From: a virus
Virus record (IMG/VR): IMGVR_UViG_3300006875_002433
Span: 1 to 38,349 of that record
DNA length: 38,349 bases
Reading direction: 5' to 3' (one strand)
The notes below the pieces were generated by a model. That model was not told the origin of the DNA, did not search any database, and worked only from the letters and a program-made list of their open reading frames with translations. Below are positions 978 to 38,349 of the stretch, in pieces. A program made the translations under genes and the position numbers. Position 1 is the stretch's first letter. Every line of letters begins with the position of its first letter.

Positions 978-1583
978 TTAATTCCTTTGTGAGTGAGAAA
1001 AAGTCTTCATTATTGTTTGTTCTTTATTTTTAAAAGTAATTGCTTCACAAAAATCGAGAAATTCTTGTTCTTCCATATTACCTTTCATTACATTAACACG
1101 TTTGTGTACCCATTGTACATTTCCTTCAATATAGCCTAATGAACTATTAATTCTATCTAATGACGCCGTATAATCACCGTTGATATGCTCTATATTATTG
1201 CGTGAAAAAAATATTTCAACACCAGAATAAGCGCATTTTCTATCTTGTTGAATAAAAAGATTCCAAAGATATTCATAACTTACAGAGAATTCTAGTTTTC
1301 TTCTTTTTGCCGCATTTTTTACCGCCGTAAGATATGCTCCCTGCATTTCTTCATGCCCAGTCCACCTTGGGTTTTTAGCGCCGCTTAAATAGCAATCTTT
1401 TGACCTAAATTCTAATCCACGATTTTTTAGAATTTTTTGAATTTTTTTAGGGTAACTTCCAACTTCTGCTGCGATAGTTTTTATTTTCATCCCACTTTTA
1501 TACTTTTCTATAATTTGATTCTCGTTTAAATCGTGATTATAATTTTTATTTGGTAAAAATCTACCAGTTTGTTTGTCTCTCAT
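978..1583 (-). CDS. Free-standing HNH homing endonuclease
   Basis: This 201-aa protein has an N-terminal helix-turn-helix-like region (about residues 22-57, with KIKTIAAEVGSYPKKIQKIL) and a C-terminal HNH nuclease. The nuclease shows CAYSGVEI, then NIEHINGDYTASLDRINS, then GYIEGNVQWVHKRVN, the usual order in phage HNH enzymes that cleave DNA and spread by copying themselves into homologous sites. It lies between the truncated Pol III alpha gene and the exonuclease gene. An 80-base AT-rich gap precedes it, containing a TATAAT hexamer at 1621-1626 but no good -35 box. I see no group I intron core around it, so it appears free-standing. It may have caused or accompanied the polymerase truncation. 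Confidence 0.88.
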   Translation of the reverse strand: MRDKQTGRFLPNKNYNHDLNENQIIEKYKSGMKIKTIAAEVGSYPKKIQKILKNRGLEFRSKDCYLSGAKNPRWTGHEEMQGAYLTAVKNAAKRRKLEFSVSYEYLWNLFIQQDRKCAYSGVEIFFSRNNIEHINGDYTASLDRINSSLGYIEGNVQWVHKRVNVMKGNMEEQEFLDFCEAITFKNKEQTIMKTFSHSQRN

Positions 1584-1666
1584 GTTTATTTCCTTTTATA
1601 TAAGTAACCAGTTTCAAGATATTATACACAAAAATATTTTAAAAATGGTTATTTATCGCTAATTTA

Positions 1667-3322
1667 TTAATTTATTCTCCCAATTATTCCTTTGTTAATT
1701 TTTTCTATGTACATTAATTTATCTAGTAGAGTTAGTCCCAAGATATCTAATTTAACATGTCCAAGCGCTTCTAGATCTTCCATTTCTAATCCGGCTATTT
1801 TTTCATCTCCGTTCTTTTGATTTACCATGGGGCAAACTTTATTTAGATTGTTAGCAGATATAACAATTCCAGCAGCGTGTTTACCCTGAGTTTTGAATGT
1901 CCCCTCTATTGCTATAGCCTCTTTAAAATATTCCGCATAATCACCATCTAGTTCGCCGCTATCATTTATAAAGCAAAAATCCCTTAGTTCATCTGGCTTA
2001 TTTATAAGTGACCAGCGTATAATAGACCTATCTTCATCGTCCATTTCCTGTAATTGGTCAGATATTGCCGCCTCATCAGGTATGTTCTTGGTTATTTCAT
2101 TCATCTCGCTAAATCCACAAGCCTCTCGAACTCGTAGAACTTCCTTTATAGCACTTCTACCCTGAAGTCTGCCGAATGTCAACATCTGGCTAACATTTTC
2201 ATTTCCATATTTTGTTTTTAAGTATGCAATTACTTCATCCCGTTTATTAGCGGGAACGTCAACGTCAATATCAGGTAGAGATATATGATCCTCAGTATTT
2301 CTACCGGCATTATAAAATCGACTAAACAATAAATCAAACTCGATTGGATCTATTTTTGTTATTCCAATTAAGTATGAAATCAAACAACCACCGGCTGATC
2401 CACGCCCAGGTCCAGCCAGCCATCCATTTTCTGTTACATATTTAATGATGTCCTGTACAATTAGAAAATAACCAAAAAGATTGGCATTCTTTATAACTTC
2501 AAATTCCTCAAGGAATCTATTTAAATAAACTTGCTTTCTCTCTTCGGAAGATACCTTAGTTGATGATATTAAGAATTTTCTCCATCCTTGCCTACAGATT
2601 TCTTTTAGATACTCTTCTTCTGATTCGCCGTTTGGCGTTGGAAACTTTGGTAGCATGGGTTTGTTGAGAATATCATAAGTCTCACACTTATTATAGATAT
2701 CCTCAAATAGATTTACGCTTTCGGGGTCTTGCAGTAAAAATTCAGCTATCTCAGAATTATCTTTCAAGAAAAAGTCTGAGGATTCAAAAAATTCTTGATG
2801 TTGAACGTTTTTACCAGCTCGTATAGCGTCATATACTTTACGCATTGTTGTTTTCATGCCAGAACATAGTATTATTCTATGTAGGTCAGCGTCTTCTCTA
2901 TCTACATAATATGTATTAAAGAATAGCTCTGATTTTAAATAGAAATCATCACCAGTTACCGGAGATGAAGCCGGATTAATACCTACGCAAATGAGATTTT
3001 TTCTGGAGCATACAAAATTTAATAGCTTTACATCTATGTTTTTGTCTGCATCTAGAGATGAGACTAGCTCAATAAGGTCTAGCCAGCCCTGTTTATTTTT
3101 AGCAAATAATGTGAATCCATCAAAAGAGCATCCTATTATTGGCTTGATTTGATTCTCAATGCAAGCTTTATAAAAAGCTACCGCGCCAGATAGGGACTTG
3201 TAGTCAGCAATACCACAAGCTATGTATCTATTTTTAGAACATTTTTCAGTTAGTTCTTTGGGCTTAGAAAAGCCAACCCCAAGACTATAATGCGTGTAAT
3301 TACACAGTGGAAACCACTTCAT
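1667..3322 (-). CDS. dnaE: DNA polymerase III alpha, N-terminal part ending in the palm
   Basis: The 551-aa product matches the first half of bacterial Pol III alpha. It has a PHP-like N-terminus with altered metal-ligand positions (NYTHYS at 8-13; IKPIIG at 59-64), then the palm with GPGRGSAGG (304-312), the catalytic PDIDVD (350-355, Asp351 and Asp353) and the third catalytic Asp in HVKLDILGL (Asp526). The protein stops 25 residues later at GIIGRIN. Full-length alpha is over 1000 residues, so the fingers, beta-clamp-binding and OB regions are missing. No other piece is in the window. The HNH gene lies next downstream. Either the gene is split with its second half elsewhere or it is broken. 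The promoter at 3356-3383 fits this start. Confidence 0.88.
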   Translation of the reverse strand: MKWFPLCNYTHYSLGVGFSKPKELTEKCSKNRYIACGIADYKSLSGAVAFYKACIENQIKPIIGCSFDGFTLFAKNKQGWLDLIELVSSLDADKNIDVKLLNFVCSRKNLICVGINPASSPVTGDDFYLKSELFFNTYYVDREDADLHRIILCSGMKTTMRKVYDAIRAGKNVQHQEFFESSDFFLKDNSEIAEFLLQDPESVNLFEDIYNKCETYDILNKPMLPKFPTPNGESEEEYLKEICRQGWRKFLISSTKVSSEERKQVYLNRFLEEFEVIKNANLFGYFLIVQDIIKYVTENGWLAGPGRGSAGGCLISYLIGITKIDPIEFDLLFSRFYNAGRNTEDHISLPDIDVDVPANKRDEVIAYLKTKYGNENVSQMLTFGRLQGRSAIKEVLRVREACGFSEMNEITKNIPDEAAISDQLQEMDDEDRSIIRWSLINKPDELRDFCFINDSGELDGDYAEYFKEAIAIEGTFKTQGKHAAGIVISANNLNKVCPMVNQKNGDEKIAGLEMEDLEALGHVKLDILGLTLLDKLMYIEKINKGIIGRIN

Positions 3323-13787: not shown

Positions 13788-14166
13788 AATTAAAAACTAT
13801 CAAATTTATATTATTTAGTTCACACCAGCTTTCTTTTACTGAGTCTCTTCTTTTTTGATCTAAAAATCCAGCTTTAGTTTTATGGAAAAATTGACAATAT
13901 TCATAATGTTGTCTTCCATGAACTTCTATACCTAGATTAAATGTTGGAACGAGAAAGTCAAGGAATAGGACGGATTTTTTACTGGGGCAGGTGGAACCTG
14001 GAAGTTTAACCTCTTCTAAAATCAAATATCCACAAAAGACATCCTTTAATAAATCCCTTGCCATTATGTGAAATGAAGATCTTTTTTTTCTAGTGTCATT
14101 ATTTTTAATTACATATTTTTTTGAATCAATAATATATACTTTATTATTTAATCCCTTTACTTTCAT
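13741..14166 (-). CDS. PD-(D/E)XK-type endonuclease-like protein
   Basis: The 141-aa protein shows LFLDFLVPTFNLGIEVHGRQ near residue 68, where the Asp and the Glu of EVHGRQH match a PD-(D/E)XK nuclease core of the VSR/DUF559 kind. QKRRDSVKESWCELNNINLI and FNYADD follow. Enzymes of this shape cut DNA, and in phages they serve repair or recombination. It lies directly after recA with an ATGA overlap and before the 163-aa protein, so a recombination role is likely. The family assignment rests on motif pattern only. Confidence 0.65.
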   Translation of the reverse strand: MKVKGLNNKVYIIDSKKYVIKNNDTRKKRSSFHIMARDLLKDVFCGYLILEEVKLPGSTCPSKKSVLFLDFLVPTFNLGIEVHGRQHYEYCQFFHKTKAGFLDQKRRDSVKESWCELNNINLIVFNYADDIQIWRKQLECI

Positions 14167-16313
14167 AGTATCTCTCTGATTTGATTATAAATATAATCTT
14201 TCAAATCTTCATTTTCGGTCAGGAAATCTGTAACTTTTTGTATGCCCTGAAATCTAAAAAACTTTTGAACGGCCTCATCATTATTCAGGTCTATATCATT
14301 TTTAATTAAAATGTTTTTAATGGCTGGATCATCTTTGTTGTCTATCGCAGTAGATATTTCGTACCACGCTCCGCTTTTCTTTATCATACTAAATTGACTA
14401 GCTAATTGAGCTATTTCTTGGGCTTCATCTATACCAACGCCATATCTAATCCATGACTCGGCTGTTGTCATGGGCTTTCCACCTGCGGCAGATGTCTTTA
14501 TTATCCAATTGGCAATTTGTCCAACGTGTGGGCCAGTAGACTTTTCATCTTCATTTACAGACGCCCCAGAAGCTAGCCATTTACCTCTATGTGTAATTAC
14601 CATATTGGTTCCAGCTTGATATTGCATCATATTTCCACAGTCAGCAATTTTTTGTGGCGCGAATCTTGATCCGCTTGTGTTAGCTATATTGTGGGTGATA
14701 AATATTAGAATAGCTTTATTTCTAGCTACATCACCACTTATTCTTTTAAAGAACATTGACAGTAGTCTTGGTAATGAATTTCTAACACCAGTTCTGATCT
14801 CACCGTCTAATTCTTCTTTGGGAACCATATTAGAAGCTGAATCAATTATAGCAACCAAGTCTGGGCTGCTTTTAACATAAATCTCAAGGGCATTCAAATA
14901 CGTTTCAGCGGAAACTAGTGGGCATTCATCGGTTGATTGTACTATTTTTATTTTTGACGGATCTAGTCCCTTGATACCAATAAAATTTTCTTTTGTTATT
15001 CTGCCTTCAGTATTGAAATAAATAACATTCTTGCCTAGAGCTTGTGCTTTTGCGGCAAAATATAAAGCAGTGGTAGTATTATGAGTAACATTAAAATTAT
15101 CAGTTAAATAAAGATGATCTGGATGATCAATAAAAATACATTGAGTTTCTTCTTTTCTGACAAGTTCAACTTTTACTATAGTTTTAAATAGTTCTGGTTT
15201 TATTCGTTTTGTTAAAAACTTTTTACGATTAATTTTAAATAATTGATTAATATCATCTCCAGAGATATACAATCTAAAAGATTTAAACTCTTTTCCGTTG
15301 CATTTTGTCATTCTTTCTTTTATTTTAACCATATAACCAAGTGATCGTAATAATTCTGAAACATGAATACTTAAAGCATAAGACGCAGTGCTATATTCTG
15401 CTGATTTACCATTGTCATTATAACCATCAGTATCCATTAAGCCACGAACTAATTCAAATCTATCATTTATAGATGAATAAAGATAATCTTGTGGAATAAA
15501 TTTTGAATGTGATTTTTTACCCATAAGATTTAATGTTCTTAATTTATTAGTTAAATTATTTATATTTTTTCCATATCCAACTATAGAATAGTCATATTTA
15601 GATTTATGATGAATTTCCAGATCATTATCTTTAGCGTAATTTTTAAAAGCTTCTAAAATTTCATCATCTGCTGTAGTAATAATAGGAGTTCCTTGTGATA
15701 GTCCTCCATCTCCGATTAAACATCCTAGTATATATGGATCTATTTCAAGATTTTTACAGTCAAAATAAACCGGTTTACAAATAGGAATCTTCCATTTTGG
15801 TCTATCGCTATAGAATAAACCCTCTTCTATTATTTGTCTTAAAGGTAAGACTACCCACTCGTCATTTCTTCCATGATAATTTTTACAAACTTTCCATAAA
15901 TGATCTATACCACATTCTGCAAATGTGCCATCGTTAAAAGATATTCTATAAACATCTTTTATACCTTGAGGGTAAATTCCATTTATTCTTGCGGTTTCTC
16001 CGCCATTTGGAGTACAAACTATATCTCCAATTTTTAATGAGCCCATTTTTCTTGGCCCATCTGGAGTATAGACGATTGCTGATAAAGGTTGATCTTTTCC
16101 AGTCTTTGGATCGCCAGTCATTACTACGCAACTTCCCTCTCTTAGCCCACCACCAAGGGCTATATCTAAAGATGGAGATATTCCTATCTTTTTTAATTCT
16201 TGAAGATCTTCTAAGACCTTCTCTCCACTCTCTACGATATTTCCAAATTTAGAATTAATTTGATTGCTAATAACATCATCTTCAAATACTTTACTCTTCA
16301 GTTTCTTCGCCAT
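14163..16313 (-). CDS. recA: RecA/UvsX recombinase interrupted by an intein
   Basis: The 716-aa reading frame encodes a RecA-family recombinase of about 377 aa with a 339-aa intein inside. The recombinase N-terminus reads ISPSLDIALGGGL, and the Walker A P-loop is split: GDPKTGK (residues 67-73) is followed by the intein and then TTTALYFAAK (from 413). Walker B is LVAIIDSA, and LLSMFFKRISGDVARNKAIL and FITHN follow in the usual order. The protein promotes strand exchange in phage recombination-dependent replication. ATP binding cannot occur until the intein leaves, because the insertion breaks the GK-T motif. It is followed by the nuclease-like gene with an ATGA overlap. Confidence 0.93.
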   Translation of the reverse strand: MAKKLKSKVFEDDVISNQINSKFGNIVESGEKVLEDLQELKKIGISPSLDIALGGGLREGSCVVMTGDPKTGKDQPLSAIVYTPDGPRKMGSLKIGDIVCTPNGGETARINGIYPQGIKDVYRISFNDGTFAECGIDHLWKVCKNYHGRNDEWVVLPLRQIIEEGLFYSDRPKWKIPICKPVYFDCKNLEIDPYILGCLIGDGGLSQGTPIITTADDEILEAFKNYAKDNDLEIHHKSKYDYSIVGYGKNINNLTNKLRTLNLMGKKSHSKFIPQDYLYSSINDRFELVRGLMDTDGYNDNGKSAEYSTASYALSIHVSELLRSLGYMVKIKERMTKCNGKEFKSFRLYISGDDINQLFKINRKKFLTKRIKPELFKTIVKVELVRKEETQCIFIDHPDHLYLTDNFNVTHNTTTALYFAAKAQALGKNVIYFNTEGRITKENFIGIKGLDPSKIKIVQSTDECPLVSAETYLNALEIYVKSSPDLVAIIDSASNMVPKEELDGEIRTGVRNSLPRLLSMFFKRISGDVARNKAILIFITHNIANTSGSRFAPQKIADCGNMMQYQAGTNMVITHRGKWLASGASVNEDEKSTGPHVGQIANWIIKTSAAGGKPMTTAESWIRYGVGIDEAQEIAQLASQFSMIKKSGAWYEISTAIDNKDDPAIKNILIKNDIDLNNDEAVQKFFRFQGIQKVTDFLTENEDLKDYIYNQIREIL
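15078..16094 (-). mobile_element. Class 3-type intein with LAGLIDADG endonuclease in recA
   Basis: The intein occupies residues 74-412 of the recA frame. It starts Asp-Gln-Pro-Leu (DQPLSAIVYTPDG), so it lacks the usual Cys or Ser at position 1. It has the class 3 signature: Trp140 at the end of block B (GIDHLW), Cys392 in block F (QCIFIDHPDH) and Thr410 in block G (NFNVTHN), followed by extein Thr413. Class 3 inteins use the block F Cys as first nucleophile. Two LAGLIDADG motifs are present, ILGCLIGDGG (about 195-204) and LVRGLMDTDG (about 288-297), so an active homing endonuclease is likely. Confidence 0.88.
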
Positions 16314-21662: not shown

Positions 21663-21953
21663 TTATTCTTTTTCAGCAGGAAACAGCCATTCGTATTTAA
21701 TTGGTATGTCTGGGAAATTATCTAACACAAGTACGCCTGATTCTTCTTCTAGTATGATGCTAGATATTTTTATAGACACTTTTAATATCTTTTTGATTTT
21801 TAATACGGGCCTGTTTCCATCAAATTGAATTATATATCTATTTTCATTTTTAGATATATTTATATTTACAGGATCTGATATGCTTATAGATATGAATTCA
21901 TTTGAATATCCATCGTCGTTAAACAAGACATGTAGTATGTCGTATGGATTCAT
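21663..21953 (-). CDS. Hypothetical protein following the thioredoxin-like gene
   Basis: This 96-aa protein is probably all-beta, with ISISISDPVNINISKNENRY and RPVLKIKKILKVSIKISSII, ending PIKYEWLFPAEKE. I see no catalytic motif or signal. The ATG at 21953 overlaps the upstream stop as TAATG, so I prefer it to a GTG four codons earlier. It is the last gene before the RNR leader. Confidence 0.55.
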   Translation of the reverse strand: MNPYDILHVLFNDDGYSNEFISISISDPVNINISKNENRYIIQFDGNRPVLKIKKILKVSIKISSIILEEESGVLVLDNFPDIPIKYEWLFPAEKE

Positions 21954-22591
21954 TATTGATTCCACATGTCAGATATATTTTTTGCTTTTTGAAATCCGAT
22001 TAATGATTTGGTTTCCTTTTGATTTTCAAATAAAACAAATAGTGGTATTTTTCTAGACTTACCATACATTTTATACAACGTAGCGTCATTGTCAATATTA
22101 ACTAGACGAATATGGTTATCTAATCCTTCTCCTATTTGCCATCCAGCGGTTTTTAATTGCGGGATTTCAGTTTCTTTAAATTGTAAGCATGGCAAACAGG
22201 AGTCAGATGTAAACAATAGTATTTGTTTTGTCAAAAACTTATTTTCAGGCTCATTCAGTTTTTTTTTTAATTCTGCGCCGTAGTATATACCGGCTTCTTT
22301 CTTTACGCAATCGCAGGCTCCATCACCTTCGTTATAGCATTGACATGGCGTTCTATGACCATCGCCATGAACCATCGTTTTTGAGCCCCTACAGTCGCAT
22401 TTAGAGTCATCTGGAAGTACATTTGGAGTAGACTGCGGGTTGTAAGAATTTACTATATGGGCTATATAGCCCTCATTCTTTGCATGATCAAATTGAAATT
22501 TATTCTTTTCTTTAAGATCATTACCAAAAAATTGTAAAGGTAAAAATGTTACTAATAAAAAAACGAGCAATATTAATGTGCTAGTTTTCAT
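21953..22591 (-). CDS. Secreted Cys-rich thioredoxin-like protein
   Basis: The 212-aa protein has a signal peptide (MKTSTLILLVFLLVTFLPLQ). A Cys cluster follows, KCDCRGSKTMVHGDGHRT then PCQCYNEGDGACDC, with alternating CxC pairs and a HGDGH core. The C-terminal thioredoxin-like domain has the active site SDSCLPCLQF (about 127-136, CxxC) and a cis-Pro region KSRKIPLFVLFEN. It would act on disulfides outside the cytoplasm. The CxC...HGDGH...CxC cluster reminds me of proteins from Planctomycetota. It follows the papain-like protease with one shared base, suggesting they act together, perhaps in oxidising or activating the protease. Confidence 0.78.
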   Translation of the reverse strand: MKTSTLILLVFLLVTFLPLQFFGNDLKEKNKFQFDHAKNEGYIAHIVNSYNPQSTPNVLPDDSKCDCRGSKTMVHGDGHRTPCQCYNEGDGACDCVKKEAGIYYGAELKKKLNEPENKFLTKQILLFTSDSCLPCLQFKETEIPQLKTAGWQIGEGLDNHIRLVNIDNDATLYKMYGKSRKIPLFVLFENQKETKSLIGFQKAKNISDMWNQ

Positions 22592-23484
22592 TATATAATC
22601 CTTGTATTTAATTTTCTAGGTTTAAAGCCTTCATAACTACTAAAAGCCCATGAATCACCCTGGCTTAAAATTCTCTTTTCTATAACTTCTGCATCTACCC
22701 AGAAAGATCCGTCAGGTTGATTATTTCTTTTTGGACCACCATTCCATACGCCCCATGAATTTTGAACCAAAACACCTGGGCGCTTATATTCATCATCAAC
22801 ACCGAGTATAGACATTTGGTGAGCCCAGCTTCCTTGAGGAGAGGCAAAGCCTTCTTCGTCCCTTCTAGATGAAAAACCTTGATTACTTGCTATTGTTACA
22901 GCGTATCCATTACAAATCAAATCTCTTGCTTGTTCATATGTATCAACTCTTGATACGACATGAATTGGATGTTGTCTAGCTATTTCTAATAGTTCTTTAG
23001 GAACTCCATTTCTTCCCAATGTGCGAGCAACAGAACCGCTATAATTAGTTAGATCAATGTCTCCGTATTTTTGTCGCGGCAATGCGCCATATGTATTAAC
23101 ATACTTTGCGGCCCATGCACCCACTGAACCATCGCCAGAAATTCTACCGCCACCAATTTGAACTCTACTGCCACCATAAATATCTTCGGTAGCAGTTTCA
23201 GCAACCCATTCTTCAAATTCATTCTTTAGAAAAATATCAACACACTTAACAGCATCTACAGCGTATGCTGCCCCATGTGAAACACAATCTCCAATATCTT
23301 GTTTTCTCATGGGAAAAGTACCAGCAACTTTGCGTATCACTTCGTATAAAAAAATCTTTTTACCTTTTCCACTATCTTTAATTGGTGCCCATACATCATT
23401 AAATATTGGAAATGGTAGAGATTCCATTACTTCTTCAACTTTAGCTGGATCATAAACCCAGCCGAAAAGATTTTCACCACTCAT
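22591..23484 (-). CDS. Papain-like (C1 family) cysteine protease
   Basis: The 297-aa protein has the papain triad in order: KQDIGDCVSHGAAYAVDAVK (about residues 61-80) with the oxyanion Gln and the nucleophile Cys, GSWAHQMSILGVDDEY with the His, and VLVQNSWGVWNGG with the Asn. This is the C1A arrangement without a classical propeptide or signal peptide, though the first 40 residues are extra. The role may be lysis, proteolysis of host envelope proteins, or virion entry. Its neighbours are membrane and secreted proteins. Similar DIGDCVSxG proteins occur, to my recollection, in Planctomycetota and their viruses. The stop overlaps the next ATG. Confidence 0.82.
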   Translation of the reverse strand: MSGENLFGWVYDPAKVEEVMESLPFPIFNDVWAPIKDSGKGKKIFLYEVIRKVAGTFPMRKQDIGDCVSHGAAYAVDAVKCVDIFLKNEFEEWVAETATEDIYGGSRVQIGGGRISGDGSVGAWAAKYVNTYGALPRQKYGDIDLTNYSGSVARTLGRNGVPKELLEIARQHPIHVVSRVDTYEQARDLICNGYAVTIASNQGFSSRRDEEGFASPQGSWAHQMSILGVDDEYKRPGVLVQNSWGVWNGGPKRNNQPDGSFWVDAEVIEKRILSQGDSWAFSSYEGFKPRKLNTRII

Positions 23485-23933
23485 TTTAATTTCTCCGCTA
23501 GATTTTTAAATATAGCCGCAAAGTTTTGTCTGTCTTCTTTCGTTGACAATTTTTTAGGTTCATCATACTTTACGCTTACTAGATATTCTGAAACGGAGGT
23601 TGTGAAATTTGGATATTTTTCCCTATTCCATCCGTATGATGTTTGGACCTTACCAAAAATTGGATCAAACTGCGCAGTTGTTTGAAGATTTTCGGCAACT
23701 TCTAGATATTCACCGGCACCGGCGAAAAGTTTATAGATTAATAGCTTATCTTCTTTAGATTCAATCTTATCAAATTCATCTTTTACTTTTTGAAGTTCCT
23801 TTGAGTCAACACTTGAGGATACTGTTAAAACTTTATTTGTTGATTCCGACGCAATTTTAACTACCATGAAGGTGTTGGAAGCAATCAGGAGACTTACAAT
23901 AGCTCCAGCAAAAAACGATAAATATTTGTTCAT
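23481..23933 (-). CDS. Membrane-anchored periplasmic protein
   Basis: This 150-aa protein starts with a long hydrophobic segment (MNKYLSFFAGAIVSLLIASN), probably an uncleaved anchor, then a charged soluble part. It has DSKELQKVKDEFDKIESKED, YKLFAGAGEYLEVAENL and VSEYLVSVKYDEPKKLST. No known domain is recognised. It overlaps the protease start by four bases and the 123-aa gene by four, so it belongs to the membrane cluster and may be a partner or anchor for the protease. Confidence 0.65.
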   Translation of the reverse strand: MNKYLSFFAGAIVSLLIASNTFMVVKIASESTNKVLTVSSSVDSKELQKVKDEFDKIESKEDKLLIYKLFAGAGEYLEVAENLQTTAQFDPIFGKVQTSYGWNREKYPNFTTSVSEYLVSVKYDEPKKLSTKEDRQNFAAIFKNLAEKLK

Positions 23934-24301
23934 GCCTTTTTTCCTTTTTGTTCAGAAAACAATAGATTGTTCATCTTTATCACAAGTTCTAACATTTCAG
24001 CCGAGTCAATCTCTTTAGCCCTTTTCTTTAGATAGACTAAAGTTTTATAATCCATTAATTCTTTTTCCTCAATTGACAAATCTAATTCTTTCTCATTCAT
24101 ATCTTCGTCCTTTTTCTTTTTGGTTATCAAAAAATCTTTTATTTTAGAGAAATTTTGATATAATAAAAACAATCCACCGCCACCGCTAATAAGCATTTGT
24201 AGCATGAATGTTATTGTATACTCAAAATTATCTTTGAGTAAAGAAAATAATCCCATGCCGCAAAAGAATATTAAAAAAAGAAATCCAATAATGATGTCCA
24301 T
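23930..24301 (-). CDS. Two-helix membrane protein with cytoplasmic tail
   Basis: This 123-aa protein has two membrane segments near the start, IIGFLFLIFFCGMGLFSLL and FMLQMLISGGGGLFLLY, then a highly charged cytoplasmic tail (KKKKDEDMNEKELDLSIEEK and a KRAKEIDSAEMLELVIKM helix). The size and topology suit a holin or accessory lysis protein, but no family is recognised. It sits between the holin-like gene and the anchored protein. Confidence 0.6.
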   Translation of the reverse strand: MDIIIGFLFLIFFCGMGLFSLLKDNFEYTITFMLQMLISGGGGLFLLYQNFSKIKDFLITKKKKDEDMNEKELDLSIEEKELMDYKTLVYLKKRAKEIDSAEMLELVIKMNNLLFSEQKGKKA

Positions 24302-24315
24302 GATTTTTTCCTTGG

Positions 24316-24531
24316 TTATTGTTTGCTATAATCCTTAATCCATCTAACGAGGGTGTTGACCGCCAAAGCTACAACAGGAACTATAAGAGCGCTTGATGGA
24401 CCAATGTTTATATTTGCTAGATTTTCGCCAACAAATGTTAATCCGGCGGCTAGAGAAACAAGCAATGCGTTTTTGGCTAATTTAATTAAATCAGCTTGGT
24501 TTAACTGAAAACTTTTAGAACCTTCATTCAT
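24316..24531 (-). CDS. Holin-like small membrane protein
   Basis: The 71-aa protein has LNQADLIKLAKNALLVSLAA then TFVGENLANINIGPSSALIV and a basic tail WIKDYSKQ. It has two membrane segments and a charged C-terminus, as in small phage holins that open the inner membrane. I recall similar phage proteins annotated as holins. The ATG at 24531 has GGAG seven bases upstream. It lies in the membrane cluster with the papain-like protease. There is no direct evidence of hole formation. Confidence 0.6.
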   Translation of the reverse strand: MNEGSKSFQLNQADLIKLAKNALLVSLAAGLTFVGENLANINIGPSSALIVPVVALAVNTLVRWIKDYSKQ

Positions 24532-24545
24532 GATATTCTCCAATA

Positions 24546-25151
24546 TTAAATAATTAATAAGTGAAACAAAAAACCGTGGTGTTCTTTTTCGTTGATCTTG
24601 TAGGGATATCCTACAAATTTTAATCTTTTATTGTCGCTGGATCTTGTTTCAAATTCAAATTTCCTTCCCATATTTATGCAGGATTGAAATTCTTTTAAGA
24701 AATCTTCTCGTTCTTCATCATGAATATAAGTTATCCAGTCATATCCTTCCATATCTGATTGTGTTTTACCAGTAACTTCATAAAACTTTTCATTAATCCA
24801 GATCAGATTACCGTTTTTATCAACTTCAAATAGGGCTTGGTCGTGATAGTGCAGCCCAGCTTTAGTTCGTTGTTCTATAACCTTTTGCCTTTTTTCCATT
24901 CTTTCGCAAGTTATTTTTAATGAGTTTACACTATCTTTTAAACTTCCGCCACCATTTGGTATTACTTCGCTTTTTATTATTTCTACAGACTTAATTAAAT
25001 TTGAATGATCTTGAAACGCTTGTATTAGAGGTTTAAAGATCTTTTTATGAATAAAGACAAGTACACCAAAAAGACTTCCTAAAATCGGGATTAATAGCCC
25101 GATGTAATCTATTAAATACGAGTACGATGAGATTTGGGCAAAAAATAGCAT
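24546..25151 (-). CDS. Membrane-anchored PAS-domain protein
   Basis: The 201-aa protein has an N-terminal membrane segment (YLIDYIGLLIPILGSLFGVL), a linker with NGGGSLKDSVNSLKITCERM and a C-terminal PAS domain, from LFEVDKNGNLIWINEKFYEV to DWITYIHDEEREDFLKEFQ and FEFETRSSDNKRLKFVGYPY. There is no kinase, HAMP or cyclase domain after it. PAS domains sense ligands or redox. Here it sits two genes upstream of the holin-like region and may tune the membrane event. The ATG at 25151 follows GGGGGT, better than a TTG four codons upstream. Confidence 0.78.
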   Translation of the reverse strand: MLFFAQISSYSYLIDYIGLLIPILGSLFGVLVFIHKKIFKPLIQAFQDHSNLIKSVEIIKSEVIPNGGGSLKDSVNSLKITCERMEKRQKVIEQRTKAGLHYHDQALFEVDKNGNLIWINEKFYEVTGKTQSDMEGYDWITYIHDEEREDFLKEFQSCINMGRKFEFETRSSDNKRLKFVGYPYKINEKEHHGFLFHLLII

Positions 25152-25216: not shown

Positions 25217-25870
25217 TTAGGATTCGTATGCATCTTTTGCTTTATAGACATCGCTCTTTGGAACTGCTCCACCAAAGCGATATGTCAATTCACCAGGAAT
25301 TGCTCTAGTTGGAACTGCTGCATCATCAATTGCTGGAATTCTACCATTGCCGGAAGGTCTTACATAAGCTTCTAATCCGCCAGCGCCAGAACCTCGAACA
25401 AAATTGGGGGTAATTGTTCCGTCTGGTTTAGCGTAGTAATTAAATGTGGTGCTATTGCCAGAGCCAAGATATCTAGTAGTAACAAGTTCATTAATGAAGT
25501 CGCGTGACTTATGATCAAAATCTGAACTTGTGCTTAAAAGAACATTATTAGCAACGCCGCCAATTTTAGTAGCAACGCCGCGAATAATCCATTCATCTGA
25601 CTTGTCCTTGTAGGCAAGAGCTACAGATGACTTAATTCCAGAAATACCAACTGCGTCAGTCGTATCACCAGTTGTGCCGTCTAATGCTACAACTAACGAG
25701 CCGTAAGTTTGCCCCATGTCATCAGCTATTGTATTTAAAGCTAAAATTTTGCTGACAGGACTTCCAGCGGGAACGTTTCCGCCATTAATGACGGTTCCGC
25801 CGTTTTGAACTCTTACAGTCGTTCCGGAGGTAGCATACGTTTTCCAATTTGTAGTAACTTTGTCGTCCAT
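25217..25870 (-). CDS. Probable virion protein (217 aa)
   Basis: This 217-aa protein is rich in Gly, Thr, Ser and Asn. It begins TNWKTYATSGTTVRVQNGGT and includes a SDFDHKSRDFINELVTTRYL segment and GSGAGGLEAYVRPSGNGRIP. It has no signal or membrane segment and looks beta-rich, as phage decoration or fibre proteins do. It is less AT-rich than its neighbours, and it is bounded by a late-promoter-like box upstream and a terminator downstream, which together suggest strong, separate expression. A virion role is inference, as no family is recognised. Confidence 0.6.
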   Translation of the reverse strand: MDDKVTTNWKTYATSGTTVRVQNGGTVINGGNVPAGSPVSKILALNTIADDMGQTYGSLVVALDGTTGDTTDAVGISGIKSSVALAYKDKSDEWIIRGVATKIGGVANNVLLSTSSDFDHKSRDFINELVTTRYLGSGNSTTFNYYAKPDGTITPNFVRGSGAGGLEAYVRPSGNGRIPAIDDAAVPTRAIPGELTYRFGGAVPKSDVYKAKDAYES

Positions 25871-25951: not shown

Positions 25952-26428
25952 TTAATTAACTTGGTTTTTAAATTTTTTCAGATTTTTTTTGATTCTTAGC
26001 CTAATTGTTTCGCCGCAGACGTTGTTTTCCTTGGCTATTTCCTTTATGGATTTATTATTAAAATAATAATCATAAATAATATCTGGATGTTCACACTTAG
26101 AAATATAGTCTAAAATATCTATATTGGATATATAATTCCTACCATCCTGTACATTATGAATATGAGGATGGTATTTAAGGTTAGAGTTGAATTTTTGTTG
26201 GGTGAGACACTCCATAATTACGCCGTTGTACAAATATGTAGTAAATTTCGAACCAAAGTTAGGGTCGTATTTCTTAATGGCTTTCCATAGGGCGTTTAAA
26301 ATACAGGTATAGATTTCGTCCTCATTTAATTGCTTATTGAACCTGATAGATGCCTTCCTTGCTATTTTAACAACATTTTGATCACAGAGCAATTCTTCAA
26401 TGGTCTTTTCGTTCTCGTTGGTCAACAT
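25952..26428 (-). CDS. Phage sigma factor (sigma70 family)
   Basis: The 158-aa protein has sigma region 2, EDEIYTCILNALWKAIKKYD then FTTYLYNGVIMECLTQQ, in the middle and a region 4 helix-turn-helix at the C-terminus, YYFNNKSIKEIAKENN then ETIRLRIKKNLKKF. Size and layout suit a phage-encoded sigma of the gp55 or group 4 type, which would redirect RNA polymerase to phage late promoters. Start overlap with the 143-aa gene is 32 bases. The candidate late box at 25938-25945 lies just downstream. Confidence 0.85.
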   Translation of the reverse strand: MLTNENEKTIEELLCDQNVVKIARKASIRFNKQLNEDEIYTCILNALWKAIKKYDPNFGSKFTTYLYNGVIMECLTQQKFNSNLKYHPHIHNVQDGRNYISNIDILDYISKCEHPDIIYDYYFNNKSIKEIAKENNVCGETIRLRIKKNLKKFKNQVN

Positions 26429-37578: not shown

Positions 37579-38349
37579 TCAAATTAAAATATCTTTTATA
37601 ACTTTACCGTTATCCACTATCTCAACGGGCCTTTCTCCAGGCGCCATTAACTCTTTATCCGCCACAATACCTAATAGGTGGTACATTGTATACGCAAAAT
37701 CTTCCGGTGATACTGGGTTATTTTCCGGCTCTGATGCGGTAGAATCCGTAGCCCCATAGATTAATCCACGTTTCACACCGCCACCGGCCAGTAGCGTGCT
37801 AAACGCTTTGGGCCAATGATCACGCCCTGCGTCTGCGTTGATTTTGGGCGTTCTCCCAAATTCACTACTTACCATGATTAGAGTCGTGTCTAATAAGCCG
37901 CGCTCATCTAGATCGCTAATAAGGGCCGTTAAAGCCTTATCTAGAGGTGGAGCTTGAGTTTTCATCGCACCATTGATCCCTTGGTGCATATCCCAGCCGC
38001 CATAAGTTAAAGTTACCATTCTAACGCCAGCCTCAACTAATCTCCTAGCCATTAACATTCTTTGACCGGCTTGATTTTTACCATATCGTTCTTTAATTTT
38101 TTCATCTTCTGCTTTTAAATTAAATGCTTCCCTAGCTTTTGGCGAAGTAATTAAACTAAAAGCCTGATCATAAAAACTATTCATAGCTTTCATTTTATCA
38201 GCATGGGGATTTTTATAAAAGAAATCTTGATTGACTATAGCTAGGGCGGACTTCCTTCTTTCAAATCTATCTAGATCAATACCTTCTGGCAGAGACAGGT
38301 CTTGCACCTGGAAATTCTCATTTGCAGGGTCTGAACCAAGACTGAACGG
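37579..38349 (-). CDS. DUF1501-type protein, 5' end outside the window
   Basis: The open frame runs to the right edge (256 residues visible). It begins PFSLGSDPANENFQ then VQDLSLPEGIDLDRFERRK and contains AGVRMVTLTYGGWDMHQGIN, LDERGLLDTTLIMVSSEFGR and a TPKINADAGRDHWPKAFSTL region, ending in VEIVDNGKVIKDILI. This matches the C-terminal part of DUF1501 proteins, which are abundant in Planctomycetota and related to alkaline-phosphatase-like or sulfatase folds. The N-terminal part, usually with a twin-arginine signal, is missing. It is nine bases from a phage gene, on the same strand. Confidence 0.87.
   Translation of the reverse strand, partial: PFSLGSDPANENFQVQDLSLPEGIDLDRFERRKSALAIVNQDFFYKNPHADKMKAMNSFYDQAFSLITSPKAREAFNLKAEDEKIKERYGKNQAGQRMLMARRLVEAGVRMVTLTYGGWDMHQGINGAMKTQAPPLDKALTALISDLDERGLLDTTLIMVSSEFGRTPKINADAGRDHWPKAFSTLLAGGGVKRGLIYGATDSTASEPENNPVSPEDFAYTMYHLLGIVADKELMAPGERPVEIVDNGKVIKDILI

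Follow-up and report, generated by a model that had tools for sequence, protein, structure and literature searches.

Phages are described as lysing double-membrane cells by means of a holin, a peptidoglycan hydrolase and a disruptor of the outer membrane. The holin-released CHAP and NlpC/P60 endolysins use the Cys-His catalysis of the papain-like superfamily. In phage Mu, the SAR endolysin gp22, a peptidoglycan hydrolase, carries an N-terminal membrane anchor, and the releasin gp25, a membrane-tethered cytoplasmic protein, is needed for endolysin release (PMC9239132). Peptidases can also lyse cells, as methanogen phages encode the pseudomurein endoisopeptidases PeiW and PeiP, enzymes that cleave peptide bonds in an unusual wall (PMC4592898).

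We analyzed a stretch of viral DNA of 38,349 nucleotides (a 38.3-kb record, hereafter called the window) that contains replication and nucleotide genes. Six nearly gapless minus-strand genes occupy positions 21953-25151, with intergenic distances of +2, +14, -4, -4 and -1 bp (Table 1). The initial annotation had described here a tight run of six membrane or exported proteins, and all six are indeed found at these positions and on this strand. In the order of transcription, they encode a protein with a transmembrane (TM) segment, a coiled coil and a PAS domain, a 75-residue two-TM hairpin, a second two-TM protein, a member of a family that we call A4, a papain-type protease and a member of another family, A6. 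Topologies were deduced from hydropathy and motif patterns only, and open reading frames were called mechanically. A sigma-like gene (25952-26428; PHROG 351, 3e-15) lies upstream of the cassette and a ribonucleotide reductase gene downstream.

A parallel can be drawn with lambda-type holin/endolysin/spanin cassettes, which likewise combine a small membrane protein, a signal-less envelope enzyme and exported accessories, and the terminase gene adjoins the cassette in prophage-type relatives as well. Unlike in these cassettes, the enzyme is a papain-type protease and not a recognized peptidoglycan hydrolase, and the accessory families are unnamed. The window protease shares papain-like superfamily catalysis with CHAP and NlpC/P60 endolysins, but it matches neither these nor any other lysin family in Pfam or PHROG and displays instead the pattern of the C1 branch. 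The TM-coil-PAS protein resembles Mu gp25 in topology only, and the N-terminal anchor on the protease of some relatives recalls gp22, which is however a peptidoglycan hydrolase. As for PeiW and PeiP, they are also phage-encoded peptidases, but of a different family and directed against pseudomurein, and we know of no holin-, A4- or A6-type partners for them.

Table 1. Features of the cassette and of its 3' neighbour in the window.
Feature	Position	Strand	Basis
N-terminal TM, coiled coil and PAS protein (releasin-like topology)	24546..25151	-	PAS_3 9.4e-8; neighbour conserved in relatives
Holin-like two-TM hairpin with basic C-terminus (A5 family)	24316..24531	-	A5 alignment, hydropathy
Two-TM membrane protein with helical tail	23930..24301	-	Sequence; kept in close relatives
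A4 family: predicted membrane-anchored exported helical protein	23481..23933	-	A4 alignment
Papain-type cysteine protease, 297 aa, no signal peptide	22591..23484	-	A1 alignment, PF00112 in relatives
Catalytic Cys67 codon	23284..23286	-	Also intein insertion point in relatives
Catalytic His222 codon	22819..22821	-	Inteins just downstream in L016 and L034
A6 family: predicted exported protein, thioredoxin-like domain	21953..22591	-	A6 alignment
CxCxGxG..HGDGHxTPC motif of the A6 protein	22337-22399	-	A6 alignment
SCLPC of the A6 thioredoxin-like domain	about 22187-22201	-	Sequence
Small conserved seventh gene at the 3' end of the cassette	21663..21965	-	Neighbour in many relatives; closes the overlapping run

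Several other genes of the window deserve mention. Just 5' of the cassette, a minus-strand gene (25217-25870) encodes a Gly-rich conserved protein whose relatives end in a conserved TRA(I/V)PGELTY.FGG motif. The UvsX/RecA-like recombinase (14163-16313, minus strand) has 716 residues and an intein-like insert in its P-loop region, the relatives without insert having about 366-381. A DNA polymerase III alpha-like gene (978-3322, minus strand) encodes an apparently partial enzyme of 551 residues, for 894 in the version of the related phage G014, and is adjoined by an endonuclease VII-like gene (978-1583). The minus-strand gene at 37579-38307 encodes a protein that presumably resembles DUF1501 planctomycete proteins. 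Two large related phages, G003 (at 95326 and 96534) and G014 (at 139632 and 140981), each carry its homologues (36-65% identity) as a tandem pair, so it looks like a phage gene of this group rather than host contamination.

The papain-like nature of the signal-less protease, already proposed in the initial annotation, is supported by the comparison with its relatives. In the alignment of the family (A1), C67, H222, N242 and W244 are invariant and Q62 is nearly so. Among the 66 aligned homologues, the catalytic cysteine is present in all 62 covering the site, the histidine in 66/66 and the asparagine in 61/64, with glutamine in the other three. The hallmarks of family C1, namely the Cys-His-Asn triad, the oxyanion Gln and the NSWG motif, were thus all found. 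No Pfam or PHROG family matches the window protease directly. Peptidase_C1 (PF00112) is matched by 3 of 20 relatives (best E-value 2.3e-5); one relative, L025, scores above the cut-off (22.6 bits versus 20.7), and the A1 profile reaches papain/cathepsin-type chains among PDB sequences at weak E-values only (0.18-0.44). Altogether, the Cys...His...Asn-Ser-Trp-Gly pattern and the Pfam matches point to the C1 (cathepsin-like) branch. Conserved active-site motifs are favoured sites of inteins, and we found inteins directly before the catalytic cysteine in five distinct cases (L028, L012, L115, L112-L114 and L134) and within a few residues after the catalytic histidine in two others (L016 and L034); Pfam recognizes intein and homing-endonuclease domains in L016, L028 and L034. 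Because of this preference, the seven cases provide independent support for a real enzyme. Judged from its sequence, the protease is a real and conserved enzyme. To our knowledge, no C1-family enzyme cuts peptidoglycan.

The window protease possesses neither an N-terminal signal nor a TM anchor, which is consistent with passage through a holin. Its relatives use other means: 7 non-redundant ones display Tat-type N-termini (M[DE]RRxFLK-like), one A1 member matches the Pfam TAT_signal family, and the copies from planctomycete prophages bear N-terminal TM anchors, a type found in 12 of 128 loci. One enzyme family would thus reach the periplasm by three routes, and these export signals argue that the protease works outside the cytoplasm.

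Concerning the membrane proteins of the cassette, hydropathy gives the 75-residue protein as a two-TM hairpin. It aligns with 14 relatives (A5 family, 34-49% identity), and in non-redundant loci none of the 38 A5 matches is more than 3 kb from the protease. With no holin match in PHROG or Pfam, it is called holin-like on the grounds of its topology, its context and the conservation of its family. The holin-like protein of the initial annotation is therefore retained as a small two-TM protein conserved beside the protease, as a lysis cassette would have by topology, but not as a member of a recognized holin family. In L099, a hairpin of this kind is fused to the N-terminus of a protein of another family, A7 (A5 profile, E=8.7e-7), and similar two-TM N-termini were seen by eye on the A7 proteins of L050, L098 and L100. 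The PAS assignment of the first protein, also made earlier, stands with a PAS_3 match above the Pfam cut-off, and in L042, L044, L039 and L015 the same slot is filled by TM-coil proteins without PAS; the timing of lysis by the PAS protein, as first suggested, is speculative.

The A7 family consists of an Ig-like domain, a Pro-rich linker and a helical domain, and takes the place of A4 in other phages. We do not claim homology between A4 and A7, as hhalign gave a probability of 1% and iterative HMM searches did not overlap. What looked like a fusion of A7 to the protease in L119 turned out to be an artefact of the reading frame. A4 and A6 are joined in a single protein in L042 and L043. Lipobox-like motifs are found in several A4, A6 and A7 members, including the A4 proteins of L009, L014, L028 and L096, making A4 a putative lipoprotein in some relatives, and suggest that the three families are located outside the inner membrane. 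The A6 protein of the window contains an SCLPC motif and gives a sub-threshold match with Thioredoxin (E=0.015), while 10 of 20 relatives match this family (best 3.1e-13). Several A6 relatives lack the thioredoxin domain, some keeping only the HGDGH part, whereas the exported CxCxGxG..HGDGHxTPC motif is usually kept; from its pattern, one could guess that HGDGH binds zinc. The thioredoxin-like assignment thus applies to half of the relatives tried and is tentative for the window protein, and the idea that the CxxC protein activates the protease by redox chemistry is weakened by the relatives devoid of the domain.

With the window protease as query, 34 related loci were found in viral contigs, and a profile scan raised this number to at least 588. 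By contrast, three different queries failed to detect the protease in 50,697 annotated phage records, in which PhoH, used as a positive control, was found in 3,527; the holin-like and PAS proteins had no match in annotated phage records either. A literature search brought up no account of a cassette of this kind. In 93 non-redundant loci (proteases less than 90% identical), 184 of the 192 matches of the A4, A5, A6 and A7 profiles lie on the same strand and at most 3 kb from the protease, for about 24% expected by position alone; as these profiles were built from proteins picked near the protease, the count gauges the extent of the arrangement and the absence of the families elsewhere in the loci, and is not an unbiased discovery. 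Among the 63 loci with enough flank, A4 or A7 is present in 55, A6 in 45 and A5 in 29, and only two Mucilaginibacter copies have no partner nearby. The gene order recurs across dozens of distinct phages, far beyond chance.

The place just upstream of the terminase is a classic one for lysis genes. TerL was found in 23 of 94 non-redundant loci examined, and in all 23 it follows on the same strand, at a distance of 0.8-5.6 kb. In L024, for example, the order is two-TM protein, A7, Tat-protease, thioredoxin protein, TerL, portal and coat. On the other hand, 18 loci of a group of large phages, the window among them, have ribonucleotide reductase downstream instead of TerL, and in the large phages the cassette lies amid nucleotide-metabolism genes (ribonucleotide reductase, dUTPase), apart from the structural genes. 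The late or packaging position is thus that of relatives and not of the window's own group. In a 158.5-kb record whose ends share a 122-bp repeat, no member of this holin family was found beside the cassette, and in L098 and L099 the protease gene lies amid head-tail genes.

The initial annotation had considered that a standard endolysin elsewhere, together with a protease acting in the virion or its maturation, would speak against a lysis role. Our searches did not bear this out. In 13 related viral records, none of six lysin families searched singly (NLPC_P60, Amidase_2, SLT, Phage_lysozyme, Peptidase_M15_4 and CHAP) was detected, many related records being fragments, while each gave matches in control genomes; a GH108 search, which matched no control, was not counted. 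Pfam scans detected no lysin in the contig of L024, in the unannotated late half of a 121.8-kb record or, among the first 25 of 36 Pfam families, in the 77 unannotated ORFs of the 158.5-kb record. The window protease itself falls in no known peptidoglycan hydrolase family. The 121.8-kb relative encodes, at the end of its structural strand, a C92 permuted papain-like amidase (L071, G003:62080-62406), which is a possible alternative wall enzyme; the C92 match is above the cut-off in this record only. We also observed trypsin-like proteases (Pfam Trypsin_2) in two related phages, one in a G014 ORF and the other at L053:15097-15933. The latter ORF, likely the Trypsin_2 match as assigned by eye, has a signal-like hydrophobic start. 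They are possibly further envelope proteases.

The gene is carried by 13 of 392 Planctomycetota genomes, with three copies in the complete genome of strain Pan216, and we apparently deal with a large family of uncultured phages, many of them infecting planctomycetes. Relatives were also found on MAG contigs labelled SAR202, Lokiarchaeota and Flavobacteriales, which could be phages placed in the wrong bin. In two Mucilaginibacter genomes (L037 and L038), the protease gene (45-46% identity) stands alone on the chromosome without the cassette, at one shared locus beside glycosyltransferase and deacetylase-like genes. A protease lysin had been thought to suit planctomycetes because of protein-rich envelopes. 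However, planctomycetes possess peptidoglycan (PMC4432640), so a protein-only wall does not explain it, and the argument is further weakened by the occurrence of relatives in Mucilaginibacter and MAGs from other phyla.

What, then, could the cassette do? That the protease would be the lysis enzyme is supported by its conserved partners, the export signals of relatives, the pre-terminase position in relatives and the lack of a recognized endolysin in the related records searched, whereas the host rationale and redox activation that accompanied this proposal are weakened. We favour a lysis cassette in which a C1-type protease serves as the enzyme, with a probability of roughly 0.6. Against it count the position in large phages, the 158.5-kb record in which no A5 protein was found beside the cassette, the head-tail context of L098 and L099, the lone Mucilaginibacter copies, the C92 amidase, the peptidoglycan of planctomycetes, which no C1-family enzyme is known to cut, and a holin assignment without database match. 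Alternatively, the protease could be a lysis accessory, a proteolytic counterpart of spanins stripping proteinaceous outer layers or outer-membrane links, with the peptidoglycan cut by an enzyme too divergent to be recognized. The exported, membrane-anchored and lipoprotein-like partners, the host peptidoglycan and the C92 amidase of one relative would all fit, but with a single C92 record and no peptidoglycan hydrolase family in 13 records we find this unlikely. It is less probable still that the module remodels the envelope or excludes superinfection by cleaving host surface proteins or receptors, without any role in lysis. The nearby ribonucleotide reductase and dUTPase genes of large phages, the membrane anchoring in prophages and the solitary Mucilaginibacter genes would agree with such a function; the 23 loci in which the cassette opens the packaging/late region, the conserved holin-like partner and the failure to find other lysis genes do not.

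Phages commonly need a maturation protease, and the surroundings of the gene in L098 and L099 would suit an enzyme of the prohead or virion. Yet the Tat and TM export signals of relatives led us to reject the prohead-protease reading, and a maturation role of any kind appears highly improbable given the co-located holin-like genes, the P22-type coat on the contig of L024 and the separate prohead-protease-like genes seen by eye in L050, L040 and L048. Finally, the missing signal peptide of the window protease could indicate a cytoplasmic enzyme of host takeover that merely neighbours an unrelated membrane operon, but partners conserved across very divergent phages and, here again, export signals make this very improbable too.

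If the cassette is indeed one for lysis, we infer the following course of events. The two-TM protein would act as the holin and the protease as the envelope-weakening enzyme, crossing through the holin in the window's phage and by Tat or an N-terminal membrane anchor in relatives. The TM-coil-PAS protein could be a membrane-tethered partner, possibly tuning timing or release, and A4 and A6 could be anchored or lipoprotein accessories beyond the inner membrane, spanin-like in position. Once outside, the protease would cleave proteins of the envelope or, possibly, peptide cross-links, and the cell would burst. A bolder version, in which the main lysin of this widespread, uncultured phage lineage is a papain C1-type protease that leaves the cytoplasm through a holin, by Tat or on a membrane anchor, depending on the phage, and in which there is no peptidoglycan hydrolase at all, is advanced here tentatively, as a possibility that we ourselves rather doubt. 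If true, a C1-type protease in place of a recognized hydrolase would represent a new class of lysis enzyme. It would also offer a first handle on how phages escape from planctomycetes, and supply proteins with which to probe what keeps the envelopes of these bacteria intact.
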